In this document: one piece after another, positions 38,820 through 49,441 of the stretch
How positions within the stretch are numbered: position 1 is the stretch's first letter
Layout: every line of letters begins with the position of its first letter
Source: Spirochaetaceae bacterium 4572_59
Lineage (GTDB): Bacteria; Spirochaetota; Spirochaetia; DSM-2461
Direction: 5' to 3'
NCBI GenBank assembly: GCA_002084805.1
Contig: NBMC01000015.1
Coordinates: 1-64,000 of the forward strand
DNA length: 64,000 nucleotides
Program-made: the position numbers and the translations under genes
The notes under the pieces: model-generated
The model's input: the letters and a program-made list of their open reading frames with translations, nothing else
Databases searched by the model: none
What the model was told of the DNA's origin: nothing

Positions 38820-39347
38820 ATGGGATATATTAAATATAAAGAAAAAAAATATAACTTAGTAAGCATAAAGCTTTCAAAAAGCAGTGATTTTAATGCCCTA
38901 TTAAAGGAATTCCATACTTTATTCTTCTCTGGTCTTGATAAAAAGGTGGAACATATCCGATATGCAATCCTTGAATTGGTCAACAATTCGATCAGAGCTC
39001 ATAAGGAATTGGATAGAAATGATCCCATTACAATCAGTTTTTCCATGAACGATAATTTTCTTACCATTCTGATTAAAGATGCAGGGGGAGGATTTAATAC
39101 CTCTGATCTTCCCTACGATATCAATCAGGATGTCAGCGATATTGATATGAATAACTCTTCCTTTCAGGATTATAGGGAAAAACACAGCTACAAACGTTTT
39201 GGAATGGGATTACTCCTTACAAAAAAAACCTTTGATTCTTTTAAAATCACATTCTATGGAAATGACGGCAAAGAATGTCCCTGGGAACAGGGTGTTAGCA
39301 GAGGAACGATTATCGAGATGAGGAGCCGAATAGAAAATGAACAATGA
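38820..39347 (+). CDS. HATPase-fold ATP-binding protein (RsbW/anti-sigma kinase-like)
   Basis: The protein has 175 residues. GHKL blocks: N-box EHIRYAILELVNNSIRAH (Asn-Asn in place of the usual NAxxH), G1 IKDAGGGFN and G2 KRFGMGLLLTKK. No dimerisation/His-phosphotransfer domain, so it is a stand-alone ATPase of the serine-kinase/anti-sigma type that would phosphorylate a STAS protein. First gene of a cluster containing PilZ, STAS and a second HATPase. Possibly leaderless. Confidence 0.8.
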   Translation: MGYIKYKEKKYNLVSIKLSKSSDFNALLKEFHTLFFSGLDKKVEHIRYAILELVNNSIRAHKELDRNDPITISFSMNDNFLTILIKDAGGGFNTSDLPYDINQDVSDIDMNNSSFQDYREKHSYKRFGMGLLLTKKTFDSFKITFYGNDGKECPWEQGVSRGTIIEMRSRIENEQ

Positions 39348-39660
39348 TAGAATTAATAATAGATACAGCAGCTATGCCAAGATACTGATGGATGGCCTTC
39401 CCGGATATATGAGAGATATCAGTTCGGATGGATTCAAATATGTCACAATCCTCCCTATGACCGTTCTAAAGGGTGATGTAAAACAGATCACAATAATACC
39501 CCAGGATACATCTTTCGACAGTTTTCAATTAAGTGGAGAAATTCGCTGGATAAAGGAAGAAAGTGAAGGCTTTCAGGTTTGCGGTATAAGAATTACAGAA
39601 TTTAAATCAGACCAATACAAGAACAGCTATAAAGAACTGCAAAATCGGTTTTCATCATGA
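39337..39660 (+). CDS. PilZ-like protein lacking the first c-di-GMP arginine motif
   Basis: A 107-residue, single-domain protein. The second PilZ motif is present (RDISSDGFKYVTILP, the D/NxSxxG), followed by the beta-barrel 'SGEIRWIKEESEGFQVCGIRITEF'. The upstream RxxxR, which binds the phosphates of c-di-GMP, is missing: the region reads NRYSSYAKI. Overlaps the first HATPase by 11 bases. It may bind c-di-GMP weakly, or have become a protein-interaction domain in this partner-switching cluster. Confidence 0.65.
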   Translation: MNNDRINNRYSSYAKILMDGLPGYMRDISSDGFKYVTILPMTVLKGDVKQITIIPQDTSFDSFQLSGEIRWIKEESEGFQVCGIRITEFKSDQYKNSYKELQNRFSS

Positions 39661-39674
39661 TTTAAGATTATTTC

Positions 39675-39704
39675 TTGACGGGACCTCTAGCGTAACGGTA
39701 CAAT
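39675..39704 (+). promoter_or_regulatory. Promoter upstream of the STAS gene
   Basis: TTGACG (39675-39680), 18-base spacer, TACAAT (39699-39704), about 28 bases before the STAS start. This suggests that STAS and the second HATPase can be transcribed separately from the upstream pair. Confidence 0.6.
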
Positions 39705-39732
39705 ATACAACGAATTATTGAGGAGCTGCTGT

Positions 39733-40074
39733 TTGGAACTGAAAGTCAGAAAAAGTGGAAATATATATATCATCGATATTGAAGGAGAAATGGACCTTTA
39801 CAGTGCCTTCAAATTGAAAGAACTGATCGGAAAGATGCTCGAAAAGAATATCTCTCTATATATCATCAATATGGAAAAAGTTGAGTATATAGATTCCAGT
39901 GGCATCGGAGCCCTGATTTATGTCAGTTCTGCTCTGAAAAAAAAGAATGCCAGACTTATTATCAGCAATGTTCACGGATCTGTAAAAAAAGTTATTGAAC
40001 TGACCAAACTGACCGGCTATTTCCCCATGGAAGAAACTCTGAGAGACGGCATCCTGAAACTACAAAAAGGTTAA
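39733..40074 (+). CDS. STAS-domain anti-anti-sigma factor
   Basis: A 113-residue protein of the SpoIIAA/RsbV type. The phosphorylation site is intact (VEYIDSSGIGALIYV, with Ser in DSSG). An N-terminal strand pair (VRKSGNIYIIDIEGEMDLYSAFKLKELI) completes the fold. Start is TTG at 39733 with AGGAG seven bases upstream; a further upstream TTG at 39718 has no SD. Would switch between the two flanking HATPases and a hidden partner such as a sigma factor or response regulator. Confidence 0.88.
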   Translation: MELKVRKSGNIYIIDIEGEMDLYSAFKLKELIGKMLEKNISLYIINMEKVEYIDSSGIGALIYVSSALKKKNARLIISNVHGSVKKVIELTKLTGYFPMEETLRDGILKLQKG

Positions 40075-40078
40075 GCAT

Positions 40079-40624
40079 ATGAGCAATACAAGGATTCAAA
40101 TAGAAAACAATCACAATCTTATGAATAAGGATGGTCTTTTTTACAAGGAGTTCCCCAGTGATTATCGACAAATACGTTATTTTACCCTGTTGATCGTACA
40201 AAAAGCCCCCCCCGAAATCCGAGAAATAAACCTTCTGGAACAGCAGGTAAGTGAATTGATTAAAAACGCTGTTAAACATGGGAATAAACAGGATCAGGAT
40301 AAACTGGTAAAAGTCTGGTATAGCTTTACTGAAGAAGAAGCCCGGGTGATCATTGAAGATGAAGGGAACGGATTCAAAGCCATCAGAGACTGGAATGACT
40401 TCAATTCAAAGCGAAATGCCTGCCTTTCCGACCAGAACTATGAAAAATTGGCGGACTTTGTCTCTTTCAGAACCGACACTAGCGATGATAATGATGGTGG
40501 GAACGCAATGTTTGCCGCATTGGAATACTGGAATAAAGGTGTCGTTTTTACAGAAAAAGCCAACTGTGTCGCTGTAGGAAAAACTTTCCGTAGAAAAGAC
40601 GCGGGCATCCCCATGCACCATTGA
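40079..40624 (+). CDS. Second HATPase-fold protein (anti-sigma/serine kinase-like)
   Basis: The product has 181 residues. N-box INLLEQQVSELIKNAVKHGNK, G1 VIIEDEGNGFKAI, and a divergent G2 region (SDDNDGGNAMFAALEYWNKGV). It is four bases after STAS, the usual place for its kinase partner. Its active-site blocks are better conserved than in the first HATPase. Abuts the convergent lipoprotein gene. Confidence 0.8.
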   Translation: MSNTRIQIENNHNLMNKDGLFYKEFPSDYRQIRYFTLLIVQKAPPEIREINLLEQQVSELIKNAVKHGNKQDQDKLVKVWYSFTEEEARVIIEDEGNGFKAIRDWNDFNSKRNACLSDQNYEKLADFVSFRTDTSDDNDGGNAMFAALEYWNKGVVFTEKANCVAVGKTFRRKDAGIPMHH

Positions 40625-42673: not shown

Positions 42674-43792
42674 TTACCCTTTTAAAAGATCGTCAAAATC
42701 TTCAAGTTTCAAACTGAGATTGCTAGCGTTCTCGCTCGTACTGTTCCGTGCTTTCAGAGGCAAATACTCTTCATTGTAGAGCCTGGCAAGCTGAAAAATA
42801 TCGTCTTCACTCAAGTCCTTTGGTATGAGAACCTCCAGATTATAGGAGGAATCGCTGAATCCCTTGATCATAATATTTACCGGATCCGTGACAGTCATGG
42901 CAAAATGGGGACTGTAGAAAAGCATCAGAACTCCAAGCATAAGCAAAATAGAGAGAAAAATCAGCAGATTATGGATGGCCTCTCCAACATAGATGGGTTT
43001 CAGATTGTAGAACAGCTCCATATTACCCTGCCTGACATATCCATAATCGGAGGGGCCGTACCACTGGCTGTAGTGTCTGTTATTGTAGCGGGAGTAGACG
43101 GTGCCCTCTCCGGTTCTGACAATCAACACAGAATCCTGTGATTCAAAAAGGGAGTCGCCATAAAACGTTAGAAGATCCTTATCCTGAAGATCCACCGCAG
43201 TACTGATCAAGGACTCATGCTTCTTTACAAAGTCGAGGTCGGCATCACTGCTGTGAAACAGAGTCAGAAGAAAGGAAACCACAGTCAAAGAGAGAACAAG
43301 AGAGGATATCACCGTTGTAATGATCCTGGTCAGATGACGCTGAGCCATGGCGGAATGTACAAATTTAATCTTCTTGAAAATCTTTAACAGACGTAACAGT
43401 CTGAGAATCCGGGCAATACGAACAGTTTTTACAACCTTTAGAATATTCAGCATACCCGCGGCGCCTATAAAAGCACTGCCTTCCAGAATAGAGACAACCG
43501 CCGGCCCCGAACTTAACAACAGAAGAGGCATAGATGCGATCAGATCAATCCAGCCCCGTTCTTTGAGAACATACTTAATCCCCTCTCCCCTTTTTATGGC
43601 AGAGAAATATCTTGTTAGGAATTCCACAGTAAAGAAGAGGTCAAATCCAAATCCTGTAAAGACCAGGATCTTTCTGATACCCCATGACCAGGAGAGAATC
43701 ACTGCCATATCCTCCAGAAAGGTCTGAATCAGAACCAGCAGAATGACAAAGAGAATAAAATTTTCTATAAGGTCTTTTGTTTTTTCTTTCAT
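42674..43792 (-). CDS. Voltage-sensor-domain membrane protein without pore, with extracytoplasmic domain and HAMP-like tail
   Basis: Start is the ATG at 43792 (372 residues), with TAGGAT upstream; an in-frame extension to 43924 would lie inside the previous gene. S1 (about 9-28), S2 FDLFFTVEFLTRYF (about 50-63), S3 WIDLIASMPLLLL (81-93) and S4 form a clean voltage-sensor bundle: K119, K122, R125, R128, R131, R134, K137 and K140 recur at every third position. No selectivity filter or pore helix follows. Instead there is a membrane segment (about 157-179), an extracytoplasmic domain (about 180-272), another membrane segment (273-293) and a cytosolic tail beginning VTDPVNIMIKG, HAMP-like, ending in an acidic helix. 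This resembles a one-component sensor whose input is membrane voltage. Pairs by position with the preceding gene. Confidence 0.75.
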   Translation of the reverse strand: MKEKTKDLIENFILFVILLVLIQTFLEDMAVILSWSWGIRKILVFTGFGFDLFFTVEFLTRYFSAIKRGEGIKYVLKERGWIDLIASMPLLLLSSGPAVVSILEGSAFIGAAGMLNILKVVKTVRIARILRLLRLLKIFKKIKFVHSAMAQRHLTRIITTVISSLVLSLTVVSFLLTLFHSSDADLDFVKKHESLISTAVDLQDKDLLTFYGDSLFESQDSVLIVRTGEGTVYSRYNNRHYSQWYGPSDYGYVRQGNMELFYNLKPIYVGEAIHNLLIFLSILLMLGVLMLFYSPHFAMTVTDPVNIMIKGFSDSSYNLEVLIPKDLSEDDIFQLARLYNEEYLPLKARNSTSENASNLSLKLEDFDDLLKG

Positions 43793-43796
43793 GATC

Positions 43797-44702
43797 CTAC
43801 CATCCGTTCTCTGCTGATATGTTATACAGCTCTGTGAGCATATCAAAGTCATATCCATAGTATTTATAATTCCGCCTGGCGATATTAAACCAGCTCTGAT
43901 CAGAAGAGGCGGCACCACGGTCAATCTTCATTCCCTGTTTCATATCGGCACAGCGATGGGCAAAGACTGTGGTTAATCTGGCCGTAGCTTCCAGCTTTTT
44001 ATCATCCTGAAAGGATATACTGCTGTTTATGCCGCTACGGATTACAGGATCGGGCAGCCCGGGAATCAGCTTACTCAACTGCTGGCTTATCTTTTCCGCA
44101 TAGGCGGGTGTTAGGGTCTGCCCTCCGTCACCGGGCATAAACAGAGAAGTTAAAGGCGTAAGCATCAAAGAGGTTTTTATCAAATGATAAACTTCTTCCT
44201 GGGACATTCTGAGGCGCTGGACCTTTGCCAGTTCAAAGTGAACATATTTCTGTCTCTGAAAACTATGCATAATATACTTCTTGATAATCCCTGTCTGAAT
44301 GGCCATCAAGGGTCCTGCCAACTGTTTTCTGCCAACGGGATGAGTCAGAAGTTTAGTCAGAACAGCCATAAACTGACGTTTCATACTCTCCGATGGAGCC
44401 GGCAATTTCATAAAAGAGATATAGGAATAACTCGTTTTATCAAATATCTCCGATTGAATTTGAGGAAGGATCTCCTTATTGGTCATATCATAAAGAGTTT
44501 CTATCATGATTTTATTGATATCCTGCCAGGACCAGCCGCCAAAGAAAGCAGGAGAAGACAGGGTCGGTTTCAGTTTCTCTCCATTGATTGAAAAAAACTG
44601 AAGTAATTGATCTTCTCTCTGTAGTGCGGAAAATCCTTTCATTGTAGGATTTTGCATAAGCCGGCTCAAAAACTGTTGAGCTTTGGCCTTGTCGTTTTCC
44701 AT
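43797..44702 (-). CDS. Conserved-looking protein of unknown function
   Basis: Predicted protein of 301 residues, soluble, helical, without signal or membrane segments. N-terminal region reads KAQQFLSRLMQNPTMKGFSALQREDQLLQFF; two central blocks (SWQDINKIMIETLYDMTNKEI and HPVGRKQLAGPLMAIQTGIIKKYIM) look helical-bundle. It ends four bases before the voltage-sensor gene, so both are co-expressed. Not recognised; likely to act with the voltage-sensor protein (inference). Confidence 0.55.
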   Translation of the reverse strand: MENDKAKAQQFLSRLMQNPTMKGFSALQREDQLLQFFSINGEKLKPTLSSPAFFGGWSWQDINKIMIETLYDMTNKEILPQIQSEIFDKTSYSYISFMKLPAPSESMKRQFMAVLTKLLTHPVGRKQLAGPLMAIQTGIIKKYIMHSFQRQKYVHFELAKVQRLRMSQEEVYHLIKTSLMLTPLTSLFMPGDGGQTLTPAYAEKISQQLSKLIPGLPDPVIRSGINSSISFQDDKKLEATARLTTVFAHRCADMKQGMKIDRGAASSDQSWFNIARRNYKYYGYDFDMLTELYNISAENGW

Positions 44703-44761: not shown

Positions 44762-47700
44762 GTGAAAAATAATACATTCATTTTTCTAATAATGGGGGGT
44801 GTCCTCCTTTTCTCAACTGTAAATTTTGAATTAACAGCCCAAACCGCCGAAGCTGAGGCTGAAAAAGGAGGGGCACCCAGATACCTTTTAGATATGAAAC
44901 TCGGTGATGCAGATGCTGATGTTTTATGGGAAGGCTACTGGAAACATAACTTCAGCTATGGCACAGGCTGGGAGAACGGCTCGGACGGATTTGTTTTCCC
45001 CTCGGCATTCCCGGGATTCCAGGAGGGTTTCGAGTTCTCCCAGAAACCGGATTTCTTTTTATCGGTTCTGTTACTGAATCACTACTTTCTGGAAACATCC
45101 ATCACGGAAGATTCTGATAAAAATACCTATGTTATGGGCTATATGGGCGGTGATGACAGCCCCGTCAAAGAGCTGCGGATCGGTAATGCCGGTATCGGTA
45201 TAGGAGAGTATGAAGGCATAGATGTCTCATCCCCCGACTATAATACACCCGGAATCAGCGGCAGGTTTCAGACGGAACTTTCTGAACATGAGTTTATGAT
45301 CCGCTATGACCCGACGGAAGAACAGGAAAAAACCTTTCTGGGAGAGTATGAGGTCACAGAGGAGGAAATTCCTCTGAATAATTTCTCAGAAGGCCGCTAT
45401 TTTATCCTTCCCAATGAAAATATTTCCACTCTAAAACTCTATCTGGAAGATGATAGTGGAGAACTGACAGGCAGCGACGGCCGCAACTATACCAGCCGAA
45501 ACCTAGAATATGCCCTAGACCTGAGTGATGGATTTTTGACCCTGGATGACGAATCTGACGGGCGTGTCCTGGTTTATTATGAAAAAAGCGGCAGTTCAGT
45601 GGGTGACACAACCATAGCTGAAGATTTTATCATGGAAACAGATACAAATTTTCGGCCCGATCCTTCTCGCTCTCTTCTGCCTTTCAGTTGGACTGATATA
45701 AATCCTTATTATGATTATACGACGCTTGTCCCGACCTTTGCAGATACCTCACTCGTCACCATAGAGGGAAGGGATGCTCTCCTTCTCTATGCACCTGGAG
45801 AGTTTTCCTGTTTTCAGCTCTATAACCACTATCCCTACAGCAGTTCCATTCCCTCCGAGTCATGGAGAACAGATATCTCCCTAGTGGACAGCGGATCCGG
45901 CACAGATCAGAATACGGAAACCCTGTTTAACTATGTATCAGATAGAGAAGATGATGTTATAAGCGTACAGATAACTGGCAGTGAAGAAAGGGCTCCGGAA
46001 AACCGTATTCCCTTCTATAAGGAGAACCCTGAAATCTACGGTCCTGCCCCAGGTACAGACAGCAGCAAAATATCCCGTAAACTGGTCATCTCTGTCAAAG
46101 AGAGCTCTGTGGGATATTATCTGGGATCCGGACTCATTAAGGGTTCCGTACAGGTTTATGTAAACGGGAAAGAAGATCAGAGCATCAGCGTTGACTACAA
46201 GACAGGAGAACTGAACTTTACACGCTATATCTTCCCCGACGACCGGATTACAGTCTATTACAGGACGGAATCTACCGGCTTTAGCGGAGGAGATCTGTTT
46301 ATGGCCCAGGGAAACCGGATGATCCTGTCCCAAAACTCCCGGCTGGAACTGGCGGAAGCCCTCAGATGGACCATCCCGGAAGATAAGTTGACCCAAGAAG
46401 CCGGAGAAAGCCCCGGTATAGTGGACCTGGCTGCCAACTACTACTATGAAAAGGAAAATCTGGATGTGAAAGTCAGTACAGGAATGACCCTGCGAAGCTC
46501 CGATACGGCGGGAAATCTGCGGATTCTCGGTATGGAGGACAGCGGATACTCCTTTACTGTTTCAAAAGATCAGCTAGTACCGGCAGAGGAGGATCTGACA
46601 CCGGCTTCGACAGTTGCTCCTGATGGATATGACGCCTCCAACAGGGTTGCTTTGACCTATCGTGATTTCTACTCCAATAATACAAACGGACAGAGTTATC
46701 TGAATTCCTATGAGTGGACGGGAGCAAGTGAGGACAGTAGCAGGGAAGGACCTTCTGTTGCCTCAGCGGCATCTGATGATGATGACTTCTCCTCCCGGGT
46801 CATGGTTATGACCTACCATATCAGCGGAAATGAATGGTCCGCGGGAGATTACCTTCCCGTAGAAGAGGAAGCGATCGACCTGTCGGGGTATTCTGAGCTG
46901 AGTTTTTACCTGAAACGGCAGAACCTGGGAGACGATGACCTGAAGCTCAGCCTTCTCTTGGGGGAAAACGGCGAATCCACTGACTATAATGAGAGCGGCA
47001 GTATAGATAGGGGAGACAGCAATTACCTACTCATAGAATCTGGTATACCTCTTCCTCCCTCAGAGGATGTCTGGCAGAAAGTAAGCATATCCCTAAGCTC
47101 CCGGGATCAGATGAAACTGACAAAAGTCCGCTCCTACCGTTTTGTTCTAGAGAATGAAAATGACCTGAATTCATCGGGAGAACTATTGGCCGCAGGATTC
47201 AGAGGAGAGGGATCACCCCTGCTGCTGAAAGTACTGGATGCAGACGGAGTAGAGCAGGACAGTGATAATATACAGGCTGTGGAACTTAGAGACAGCAGCC
47301 TGACAAGTGATTTTCCCGAAGTATCAAGCATATTTCATCCCGACGATGACAGCCAGAAGGTTCTGAAAGTTTCCTGGGGCAGTGATAGCGGCGGCAGCGG
47401 TTTATCCTCAGATGAATACTGGAGAGGAATCTCCTATATGGACGGTCTTTCCGCCACAGATTACGGAGAGTTTTCTCTCTATATCAAACATAAGCAGACC
47501 GGTGGTACGGGCTATATCAGCCTCTGTGATCCCCATGGTAAGGGTGTGAAACTTGAATATGAACCTGGCAATTCTGATGAATGGGAAAAACTGACCGTAA
47601 ATCTCCGGGAAGGAACAGCTGACTTTTCCGGTGCTTCCTCAGTATCCAAGCTGACTATCAATAAGGGAAGCAGCGAGTTCACACGTTTTAGCGCAGGTAT

Positions 47701-49441
47701 GAGCGGATTAAGTTCCGGAACAATCTATCTGGATGAAGTTCATCTCTCCGATCCTCTCCTGTCGACCCGGTCTATGGCGGAATATACCGTGGATTACAAG
47801 ATTCCCGGAGATATTTATCTGATCTCCGGAGGCTTTCCCCTTCTGCGAAATTTTGAGGTATACAACCGTTTTAACTATACGACAAAAAACTCCCAATCCT
47901 ACTTTTCTGATAGGGAAAATCAGATTGAGACACAGCTTAAGAGCGGCGTGGATTTTATGATGGCTCGACTGGAAGGAGATTTTGATCTCTCCTACAGCAA
48001 AGATAATCCGGAATATGCTGTAGGACATCTTATCCGGATTCCCGCGGAGTCCTCTTTCGGCTGGATATCAGACTCATACAGCCGCAGTTTCCAACAGGGT
48101 GATGATGTTATGTCCCGGGAGAACCTGCTTCATCTGACCCCTGTAAATCCTCTGACTTTGGAGCTGAAGACTGCCGGCACAGGCTCGGGTGGAGAGATGA
48201 CACAGCAATGGAGCAGCATAATTGGCTGGAGATGGCCGGAACCTGCAGACCTGAAAATCAATCTGGATTTCTACCAGAGCTCCCACTGGGTCTCCGATTC
48301 TGAAAACTACTTCGGTGATTGGGAAAAAGACTTCAAATATATCAGCCCTCTTGATGAGGGGATTCAAAGCCGGCAGGGTCAAAACAGTAATACTCTTTAC
48401 ATTCAGACAGAGGAAATGCTGGGATTTTCTCTGAAGACATCCCTGGAATACAGCGCGGAAGAAAGCTATGAATGGACCCAACAGAACCTGTGGTCATCTG
48501 AGCTTTCTTTCCCCCTTACATTGGATGGTAAGCGGGGGGACTGGACCCTTGAACCCGGATACTCCAGAACCCTTAAAAACACCCTATACCCGAAGAATAA
48601 CGATTCCTTCCAGGATGATTTGGAAAGCTGCTTCAAGGGGATTAACGCACAGTTTCCCCTGTGGAATTTCATACCTTTCTACGAGATTTTTGCAAGAGAT
48701 ACCATGTCCCCCTTTAAAGATACCCTAACCCTCACAGATGAAAGCAGCTACAGTCCGGAGGTCTTTGTTGAAATGAGCCGTATGCCCGGTTCCGCCCTTT
48801 CCGATCTGATTGTTCCCTCCAGTCTGGATTTTTCAATGGACAGAGAGTATAGCAGTGATGTGGATACCCTTTACTGGGAGAATAACTGGGATTTCCAGGT
48901 CGTTCAGTCCGCTTTGAATCTTTTTGGAGAGTATGGAACTCATCCCTATTTTGACTTTTATGAAACAGATGAATGGACAACGGCCCTCCAGTACACCCTT
49001 ACAAGCCGTGATCATTGGACTCCCGAACCTGAAAAACTGGTTTTTCAGAACTACTTCACCCTCAGGAAAGATATCAACTGGGAGATACTTCTGGATAACA
49101 GCTTTACAGTTCAATTCGAAGACGAGACAAAGGATGAAGACTTCCAGTTGATATTCCGCTGGGCGGAAGAAGAGAAAGAGTGGGTCCGCTTCCCCCTGAT
49201 AGACTATCTGATTATGAAGCCAAATCATTTACACCATGAGGAAAAGCTACTTTTTTCAGGATCCTTTGATAATCTGAATCCGGATAATAACAGCTGGGAA
49301 ACAACTCTGACCCATGAATCGACCCTGCTAATAGATGAACTGGGATCCATAAAAGGCTGGATGGCCCTTGGATTGAGCGGATATGATGAGGTTTTTCAAA
49401 ACGGTTTCGAACTGGGGCTGGAGCTGAAGCTGACTTTCTGA
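44762..49441 (+). CDS. Very large exported protein, candidate outer-membrane beta-barrel
   Basis: The predicted protein has 1559 residues with an N-terminal signal peptide (about 1-26, ending ELTAQ). The body is Ser/Gly/Asp/Tyr-rich with alternating hydrophobic patterns, a long N-terminal passenger-like region (about 40-500) and a C-terminal half full of amphipathic strands ('LKINLDFYQSSHWVSDSENYFGDW'; 'FEDETKDEDFQLIFRWAEEEKEW'). The last residues are LGLELKLTF, ending in Phe, the usual BAM recognition residue of outer-membrane proteins. Start is GTG without SD. Very low Cys and Lys/Arg content suits an exported barrel. No known family assigned; surface adhesin or secretion-related porin are possibilities. 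Confidence 0.65.
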   Translation: MKNNTFIFLIMGGVLLFSTVNFELTAQTAEAEAEKGGAPRYLLDMKLGDADADVLWEGYWKHNFSYGTGWENGSDGFVFPSAFPGFQEGFEFSQKPDFFLSVLLLNHYFLETSITEDSDKNTYVMGYMGGDDSPVKELRIGNAGIGIGEYEGIDVSSPDYNTPGISGRFQTELSEHEFMIRYDPTEEQEKTFLGEYEVTEEEIPLNNFSEGRYFILPNENISTLKLYLEDDSGELTGSDGRNYTSRNLEYALDLSDGFLTLDDESDGRVLVYYEKSGSSVGDTTIAEDFIMETDTNFRPDPSRSLLPFSWTDINPYYDYTTLVPTFADTSLVTIEGRDALLLYAPGEFSCFQLYNHYPYSSSIPSESWRTDISLVDSGSGTDQNTETLFNYVSDREDDVISVQITGSEERAPENRIPFYKENPEIYGPAPGTDSSKISRKLVISVKESSVGYYLGSGLIKGSVQVYVNGKEDQSISVDYKTGELNFTRYIFPDDRITVYYRTESTGFSGGDLFMAQGNRMILSQNSRLELAEALRWTIPEDKLTQEAGESPGIVDLAANYYYEKENLDVKVSTGMTLRSSDTAGNLRILGMEDSGYSFTVSKDQLVPAEEDLTPASTVAPDGYDASNRVALTYRDFYSNNTNGQSYLNSYEWTGASEDSSREGPSVASAASDDDDFSSRVMVMTYHISGNEWSAGDYLPVEEEAIDLSGYSELSFYLKRQNLGDDDLKLSLLLGENGESTDYNESGSIDRGDSNYLLIESGIPLPPSEDVWQKVSISLSSRDQMKLTKVRSYRFVLENENDLNSSGELLAAGFRGEGSPLLLKVLDADGVEQDSDNIQAVELRDSSLTSDFPEVSSIFHPDDDSQKVLKVSWGSDSGGSGLSSDEYWRGISYMDGLSATDYGEFSLYIKHKQTGGTGYISLCDPHGKGVKLEYEPGNSDEWEKLTVNLREGTADFSGASSVSKLTINKGSSEFTRFSAGMSGLSSGTIYLDEVHLSDPLLSTRSMAEYTVDYKIPGDIYLISGGFPLLRNFEVYNRFNYTTKNSQSYFSDRENQIETQLKSGVDFMMARLEGDFDLSYSKDNPEYAVGHLIRIPAESSFGWISDSYSRSFQQGDDVMSRENLLHLTPVNPLTLELKTAGTGSGGEMTQQWSSIIGWRWPEPADLKINLDFYQSSHWVSDSENYFGDWEKDFKYISPLDEGIQSRQGQNSNTLYIQTEEMLGFSLKTSLEYSAEESYEWTQQNLWSSELSFPLTLDGKRGDWTLEPGYSRTLKNTLYPKNNDSFQDDLESCFKGINAQFPLWNFIPFYEIFARDTMSPFKDTLTLTDESSYSPEVFVEMSRMPGSALSDLIVPSSLDFSMDREYSSDVDTLYWENNWDFQVVQSALNLFGEYGTHPYFDFYETDEWTTALQYTLTSRDHWTPEPEKLVFQNYFTLRKDINWEILLDNSFTVQFEDETKDEDFQLIFRWAEEEKEWVRFPLIDYLIMKPNHLHHEEKLLFSGSFDNLNPDNNSWETTLTHESTLLIDELGSIKGWMALGLSGYDEVFQNGFELGLELKLTF

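Follow-up and report, generated by a model that had tools for sequence, protein, structure and literature searches.

P0001, a spirochaete membrane protein combining a voltage-sensor domain with a HAMP-like segment: a candidate pore-less voltage receptor with a dedicated partner protein

What might a voltage-sensor domain do in a bacterial membrane protein in which no ion pore is apparent? The question is raised by P0001, a 372 aa protein encoded in the window (the whole stretch of 64,000 nucleotides analysed here). Six transmembrane helices are predicted. Hydropathy peaks lie at residues 8-26, 42-60, 85-103, 106-133, 161-179 and 276-294; the S2 and S4 peaks are weak (Table 1). The last two agree with the two membrane segments that a preliminary description of this locus placed around an exported domain of roughly 90 residues. 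Voltage sensors usually have a cytosolic N-terminus and, from this and the hydropathy, residues ~181-270 are probably extracytoplasmic. AlphaFold models built from a two-sequence input (the window protein and its homologue L003) gave no usable fold, with a mean pLDDT of 40.1 for full-length P0001 and 43.5 for residues 1-183.

Table 1. Segments of P0001 and its partner gene, with positions in the window
Feature	Position	Strand	Basis
P0001, voltage-sensor / HAMP-like membrane protein	42674..43792	-	translation (ATG 43792, stop 42674-42676); PF00520 over cut-off; homologues in 21/26 family genomes
S1, residues 8-31, acidic E27 and D28	43700..43771	-	hydropathy, boundaries by eye; D28 invariant in 19 family rows
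S2, residues 40-63, charge-transfer-centre pattern D51, F53/F54, E57, R61	43604..43675	-	hydropathy, boundaries by eye; family alignments
S3, residues 79-96, GW(I/V)D83, P89	43505..43558	-	hydropathy, boundaries by eye; family alignments
S4, residues 115-143, nine K/R at every third position, K119-K143	43364..43450	-	alignment, shuffle test
TM5, residues 151-180	43253..43342	-	hydropathy, boundaries by eye
Predicted extracytoplasmic domain, residues 181-270	42983..43252	-	hydropathy; no sCache/dCache profile match (this genome)
TM6, residues 271-295	42908..42982	-	hydropathy, boundaries by eye
HAMP-like segment, residues 296-348, DP...YNLEV.IP...DDIF.LA..YN	42749..42907	-	hhalign against own-genome HAMP profile
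C-terminal tail, residues 358-372, acidic-hydrophobic motif LKLEDFDDLL	42677..42721	-	motif defined post hoc
P0002, partner, 301 aa, matching no known family	43797..44702	-	ORF ends 4 bases 5' of P0001 start

Judged by its sequence, P0001 holds a channel-type voltage-sensor domain (S1-S4). It matches the Pfam Ion_trans profile (PF00520) with an E-value of 3.1e-7 and 30.3 bits for a cut-off of 25 (32.5 bits in the Ion_trans search of the genome), and 18 of the 19 family members do so at E up to 10. A family profile built from 19 relatives retrieves Kv1.2 (E 0.002), Kv3.1 (0.014) and Kv1.3 (0.067) from PDB through S2-S4, while the single P0001 sequence gives weak HCN and Kv matches only (best E 0.13). 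The preliminary description had counted eight positive residues at every third position of S4. This run is real and slightly longer, with nine K/R from K119 to K143, and in 100,000 shuffles of P0001 the longest run was seven, eight never being reached. The acidic/aromatic pattern that it had pointed out in S2 is likewise present (D51, F53, F54, E57 and R61) and is accompanied by D83 in S3. In the 19-sequence family alignment D51, F54, E57, R61, D83, K119, K122, R125, R128, R131 and R134 are invariant.

A wider alignment of 79 sequences was reduced to 74 by removal of duplicates, and to 58 by setting apart three groups (10 truncated, degenerate or contig-cut sequences, 3 Borrelia-like sequences and 3 from family f53); this sample is uneven, 19 of the 58 coming from the window's own family. 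E57, D83 and R134 are kept in all 58. Arginine stands at positions 131 and 128 in 57 sequences each and at position 125 in 56; one sequence has K at position 131, and one has K at position 125. The positions of K119, K122, K137 and K140 hold K or R in 56, 57, 58 and only 28 sequences respectively. D51 is found in 57, the sole gap being a fragment ended by a contig edge, and the acidic residue of the outer part of S1 (D28) is D or E in 56. Since these charges are near-invariant, the pattern is that of a working sensor and not of a chance positive helix. We infer that P0001 responds to voltage.

The P0001 family spans Spirochaetota. Homologues were identified in 21 of the 26 genomes of the window's family, and a search at the level of the order covered these same 26. 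In overlapping class and phylum samples, they occur in 157 of 394 and 139 of 392 genomes (E up to 0.001). These two counts include weak matches, limited to S2-S4 or to the C-terminal part, that could stem from ordinary channels or distant relatives. The search for homologues with the same layout, suggested in the preliminary description, found it across much of the phylum, alongside lineages that are truncated, charge-eroded or devoid of the extracytoplasmic domain.

The pore helix and selectivity filter, said to be missing in the preliminary description, were not found. The K+-type filter motif (T-x-G-Y/F-G), the only type of pattern applied, is present in none of the 79 family sequences, and no Ion_trans_2 match is listed for any of the 19 family members at E up to 10. 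Profiles were also compared with three pore-bearing channels of the same phylum, a thin template that includes one channel from this genome. Residues 146-298 scored 10.9, at the level of 30 column shuffles (mean 11.6, maximum 16.3), whereas the S1-S4 profile scored 32.5 (shuffled maximum 17.3), at only 48% probability and with the alignment stopping in S3. Residues 1-300 scored 38.8 (68%) with an alignment reaching residue 192, so that TM5 may derive from S5. Alignment with a pore-bearing channel, named beforehand as the observation that would count against the pore-less reading, thus gave no pore similarity in TM5-TM6 with these three channels. By these two tests, one of which is weak, P0001 has no recognisable pore domain.

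The region between TM5 and TM6 is, by eye, the least conserved part of the family alignment. Residues 178-272 do not resemble the Cache domains of this genome, the profile score falling within the shuffled range. The Cache profiles were small (two single-Cache, sCache, and 15 double-Cache, dCache, matches, with the contig-cut L160 and L166 left out), and they do not support a Cache reading of the domain. In L122 and L123 (family f75) it is missing altogether, the sensor being joined to TM6 and the HAMP-like part in proteins of 297-298 aa. Both retain the sensor, the HAMP-like part and the upstream partner gene.

The cytosolic stretch that follows TM6 is strongly conserved, with the pattern SDPV..M..G....YNLEV.IP....DDIF.LA..YN..YLPLK in the 79-sequence alignment. 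The preliminary description called its start HAMP-like, and profile comparison bears this out. Aligned by hhalign with 24 HAMP domains of the same genome, the cytosolic part scores 33.4 (92.3% probability), and 43.5 (95.7%) when TM6 is included, while 100 column shuffles of the cytosolic part reach at most a score of 13.5 and a probability of 2.2%. The HAMP profile was drawn from the 37 HAMP matches of this genome; 30 loci were taken and six dropped (five partial matches and one at a contig start). The alignment falls in the expected register: AS1 starts with a proline, and DDIF..A..YN lies opposite DEIG..A..FN. However, a single-sequence search with the Pfam HAMP model (PF00672) stayed below cut-off, one of 19 members matching at E 0.45, so the segment is a diverged HAMP.

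After a variable linker, the tail ends in a short motif in many sequences: LKLEDFDDLL in the window, and ISLDDISDLL, LSMDDL or LSVDDLL in relatives. A pattern written after the sequences were seen, and which misses some similar-looking tails, is found in 22 of the 35 sequences that have a partner gene next to them and in 3 of the 15 that do not (L128, L143 and L144). This count dropped 29 of the 79 rows (19 rows of the family alignment, 3 contig-cut and 7 truncated). One homologue of 508 aa (L058:8641-10167) carries a C-terminal extension of ~130 residues that is rich in LDDxD repeats.

The gene immediately upstream encodes P0002. The spacing of four bases noticed in the preliminary description is confirmed, and the coupled gene is a widely conserved partner. 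Homologues of P0002 are present in 96 of the 392 phylum genomes. In 93 of these 96 they lie just 5' of a P0001 match, sharing its contig and strand, and at most 965 bases (median 90) separate the matched stretches. The exceptions are G407, where the two are on separate contigs, and G409 and G477, for which no P0001 match is listed. Adjacency in the 36 genomes of family f20 and in a few others rests on coordinates because the P0001 match is partial there; in three f20 loci read directly, the two genes overlap by 7 bases. A first reading had found P0002 right before P0001 in 15 of 22 loci, and 19 of 40 further stretches match both. P0002 resembles no characterised family: no Pfam or NCBIfam model matched at E up to 1 and no PDB entry at E up to 5, and Pfam searches with 16 members gave six families, each with a single member (best E 0.029).

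A second test of the partnership used 80 genomes with a known P0001 match. P0002 is absent from all 13 genomes whose best P0001 match stops before the HAMP-like part (match end at model position 277-295). Two other short matches were set apart: G304, where the rest of the gene lies on another contig and P0002 is present, and G140, a fragment without P0002. Six further genomes (five from f43, and G347) are also without P0002, and the three proteins read from these (L062, L069 and L158) have a diverged HAMP-like part. In the remaining 61 genomes, including G304 and G140, P0002 is found in 55. Of the six without it, G064, G140 and G298 have partial matches, G225 has one that starts at the edge of a contig, and the P0001 match is near full length in G195 and G286, which have no P0002 match. 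The same association is visible within the single genus g58, where the full-length G139, G175, G251 and G284 have P0002 while the truncated G101 and G111 do not. In the truncated lineages a partly eroded sensor remains, the HAMP-like part and the partner being gone. The HAMP-like part and the partner are thus lost together. The sequences show both the architecture of P0001 and its pairing with P0002 as a dedicated partner.

Several lineages carry a sensor-HAMP protein without P0002, beside other neighbours. In L139 it adjoins a HisK_N-like protein (below the Pfam cut-off). The different neighbours found in different lineages make the module look like an input stage able to couple to several partners. 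At L148:958-2898, the sensor/HAMP-like protein comes after a caspase-family peptidase ORF (PF00656, E 1.2e-28) and before a gene for a polysaccharide deacetylase; L141, L142, L149 and L150 resemble this locus by eye, and proteins of the L148 type have no tail motif. At L143:1-2204 and L144:1-2424 (family f73), a homologue with the tail VSLDEL and no P0002 match lies directly 5' of a gene that encodes a TVGYGD filter and is potassium-channel-like, as tested for the L143 gene.

On balance, we consider it probable that P0001 is a pore-less bacterial voltage (proton-motive-force) receptor that uses a HAMP-like relay to signal to a soluble partner. S4 would move when the membrane potential, in a bacterium the proton-motive force, changes. 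This movement would pass via the S4-TM5 connection and the TM5/TM6 pair into the HAMP-like segment, and an extracytoplasmic cue may also enter at the TM5/TM6 pair. The surface of the HAMP-like segment and the C-terminal tail would thereby be exposed to P0002 or hidden from it, and P0002, a putative soluble cytosolic protein, would carry the signal onward. HAMP domains work as dimers, so P0001 probably does as well.

The sensor fold could instead be a structural or assembly element through which voltage is not read, P0001 being a ligand receptor whose extracytoplasmic domain does the sensing. The order TM5-domain-TM6-HAMP is indeed that of ordinary bacterial receptors, and some lineages dispense with the charges. 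In the three Borrelia-like sequences sampled (f20, so called from gene order), E57 is lost and five of the eight S4 positions are uncharged, R128, R131, R134, D51 and D83 remaining; in the three sampled from f53 nearly all sensor charges are lost, so far as the alignment is reliable there. Both groups retain the HAMP-like segment and P0002, and voltage sensing is therefore not the sole conserved role of the protein; this is the strongest argument against voltage reception. Either these lineages respond to a different cue, or voltage has always had another input beside it. A sensing function of the extracytoplasmic domain fits poorly, however, with its low conservation by eye and its absence from L122 and L123, where the other parts are retained. 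Moreover, an inert scaffold would not need S4 charges and counter-charges that are near-invariant in 58 sequences. We regard a ligand receptor of this kind as rather unlikely.

Voltage reception through the HAMP-like relay also accounts better for the region beyond S4 than does a proton-conducting, Hv1-type sensor extended into the cytosol, in which the sensor domain itself would pass protons. The lack of a separate pore is in keeping with such a protein, and the conserved D28 in the outer part of S1 recalls the S1 aspartate that Hv1 has. However, Hv1 has no room for the two additional hydrophobic segments, the domain between them, the HAMP-like segment or the soluble partner dedicated to P0001, and no Hv1 chain appears among the nine matches of either PDB search (single sequence or family profile). 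A proton-conducting P0001 seems very unlikely to us.

It is slightly more improbable still that P0001 is a regulatory subunit which assembles with a separate ion channel and confers voltage dependence on it. A potassium-channel-like gene with a GYGD filter does adjoin the homologue in the two f73 loci, and the genome of the window encodes one other Ion_trans protein. But this channel sits on another contig, and the recurrent neighbour is P0002 (93 of 96 genomes), not a channel. Finally, an ordinary voltage-gated channel with an overlooked pore is hardly credible: the PF00520 alignment runs to residue 240, beyond TM5, that of residues 1-300 with the three channels reaches TM5, a GPSDY motif before TM6 is faintly like GYGD, and the tests were confined to three channel sequences and K+-type motifs, but the stretch before GPSDY is polar by eye and not a pore helix, neither a K+-type filter nor an Ion_trans_2 match was found in the sequences searched, and TM5-TM6 is unlike channel pores where the sensor part matches.

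If P0001 is a voltage receptor acting through P0002, our best guess for its downstream target is motility or chemotaxis. FliM was found in 93 of the 96 partner-bearing genomes and in 244 of the 296 others (Fisher 1.5e-4, by-eye count from match tables), a co-occurrence confounded by phylogeny. The three P0002-bearing genomes without FliM (G416, G500 and G564) are drafts that are 91, 73 and 67% complete. No f25 genome is among the 96 although many of them have FliM, which argues against a necessary link. The tail of P0001 resembles the N-terminal motif of FliM, a resemblance that is suggestive only and is offered as a lead. In this genome, the N-terminus of FliM reads MTEVLSQDEIDQLL, which contains LSQDEIDQLL, and a second ORF of the same locus, presumably FliY-like, has SLSQDEIDALL. 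The FliM motif binds CheY-P. A specific version, in which P0001 and P0002 form a spirochaete motility voltage receptor whose S4 movement would free a FliM-like docking tail, so that the potential is read directly into CheY/flagellar-motor control, appears to us doubtful at best.

The surroundings of the pair were also inspected. At L052:2321-9971, a Borrelia-like locus, the pair faces flaA-cheA-cheW/cheR-cheX-response regulator genes in convergent orientation, and the sensor gene is followed by a 173-aa ORF that matches no known family and looks exported by eye. In the window, the genes beyond the 3' end of P0001, mostly on the other strand, encode an HD-domain protein, two HATPase_c_2 proteins, a PilZ and a STAS protein. 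Four of them are small genes in a row (38820-40624, HATPase_c_2, PilZ, STAS, HATPase_c_2) and resemble a partner-switching set to which a c-di-GMP-type domain is added; each has relatives in some other loci. At 44762-49441 lies an ORF of 1559 aa that no Pfam family matches and whose N-terminus looks signal-like by eye. In many loci its relatives stand upstream of the pair in divergent orientation, and its cluster is present in 17 of the 22 loci examined.

Should this reading be correct, P0001 would couple its voltage sensor to a new kind of output, a HAMP-like relay and a partner encoded separately, and would be a candidate for the receptor that informs bacteria of their own membrane potential. 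An old proposal gives membrane potential a part in spirochaete chemotaxis, and deleting a single gene would put it to the test. The lineages with eroded charges, without the HAMP-like part or without the extracytoplasmic domain provide a natural experiment. Among the matches listed in searches of open-licence papers, no such protein or voltage-sensor/HAMP combination was found, nor anything on BB0674/BB0675. The modules are known; their combination and the partner family are without a report among those matches.

In its excerpted text, a 2024 review gives Hv1, SLC9C1 and the voltage-sensing phosphatases (VSPs) as voltage sensors outside pore channels (PMC13095418). The Ci-VSP family places a four-helix voltage sensor on a cytosolic output without an ion pore, a layout predicted for P0001 as well, and the sperm Na+/H+ exchanger SLC9C1 has a voltage sensor on a non-channel protein (PMC13095418). 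In P0001, by contrast with VSPs, the putative output is a separate protein, and Pfam and NCBIfam scans found no phosphatase family in it. VSPs carry their enzyme in the same chain and lack TM5/TM6, an extracytoplasmic domain and a HAMP-like part. SLC9C1 differs in being a sperm transporter, and to our knowledge has no relation to HAMP signalling. Hv1 shares with P0001 a pore-less voltage sensor with an acidic S1 residue. However, it ends after S4 and a coiled coil, whereas P0001 continues with two more hydrophobic peaks (161-179 and 276-294) and then the HAMP-like segment. Kv1.2 and its relatives (PF00520) have in common with P0001 the S1-S4 pattern, the profile match and six transmembrane helices, but in P0001 a further domain is present where pore helix and selectivity filter were not found. 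With the HAMP receptors (chemoreceptors and sensor kinases, PF00672) P0001 shares the order of membrane segment, extracytoplasmic domain, membrane segment and HAMP. No kinase, MCP or cyclase output was found in its chain by Pfam and NCBIfam scans, and it differs from these receptors in the voltage sensor that stands before TM5.
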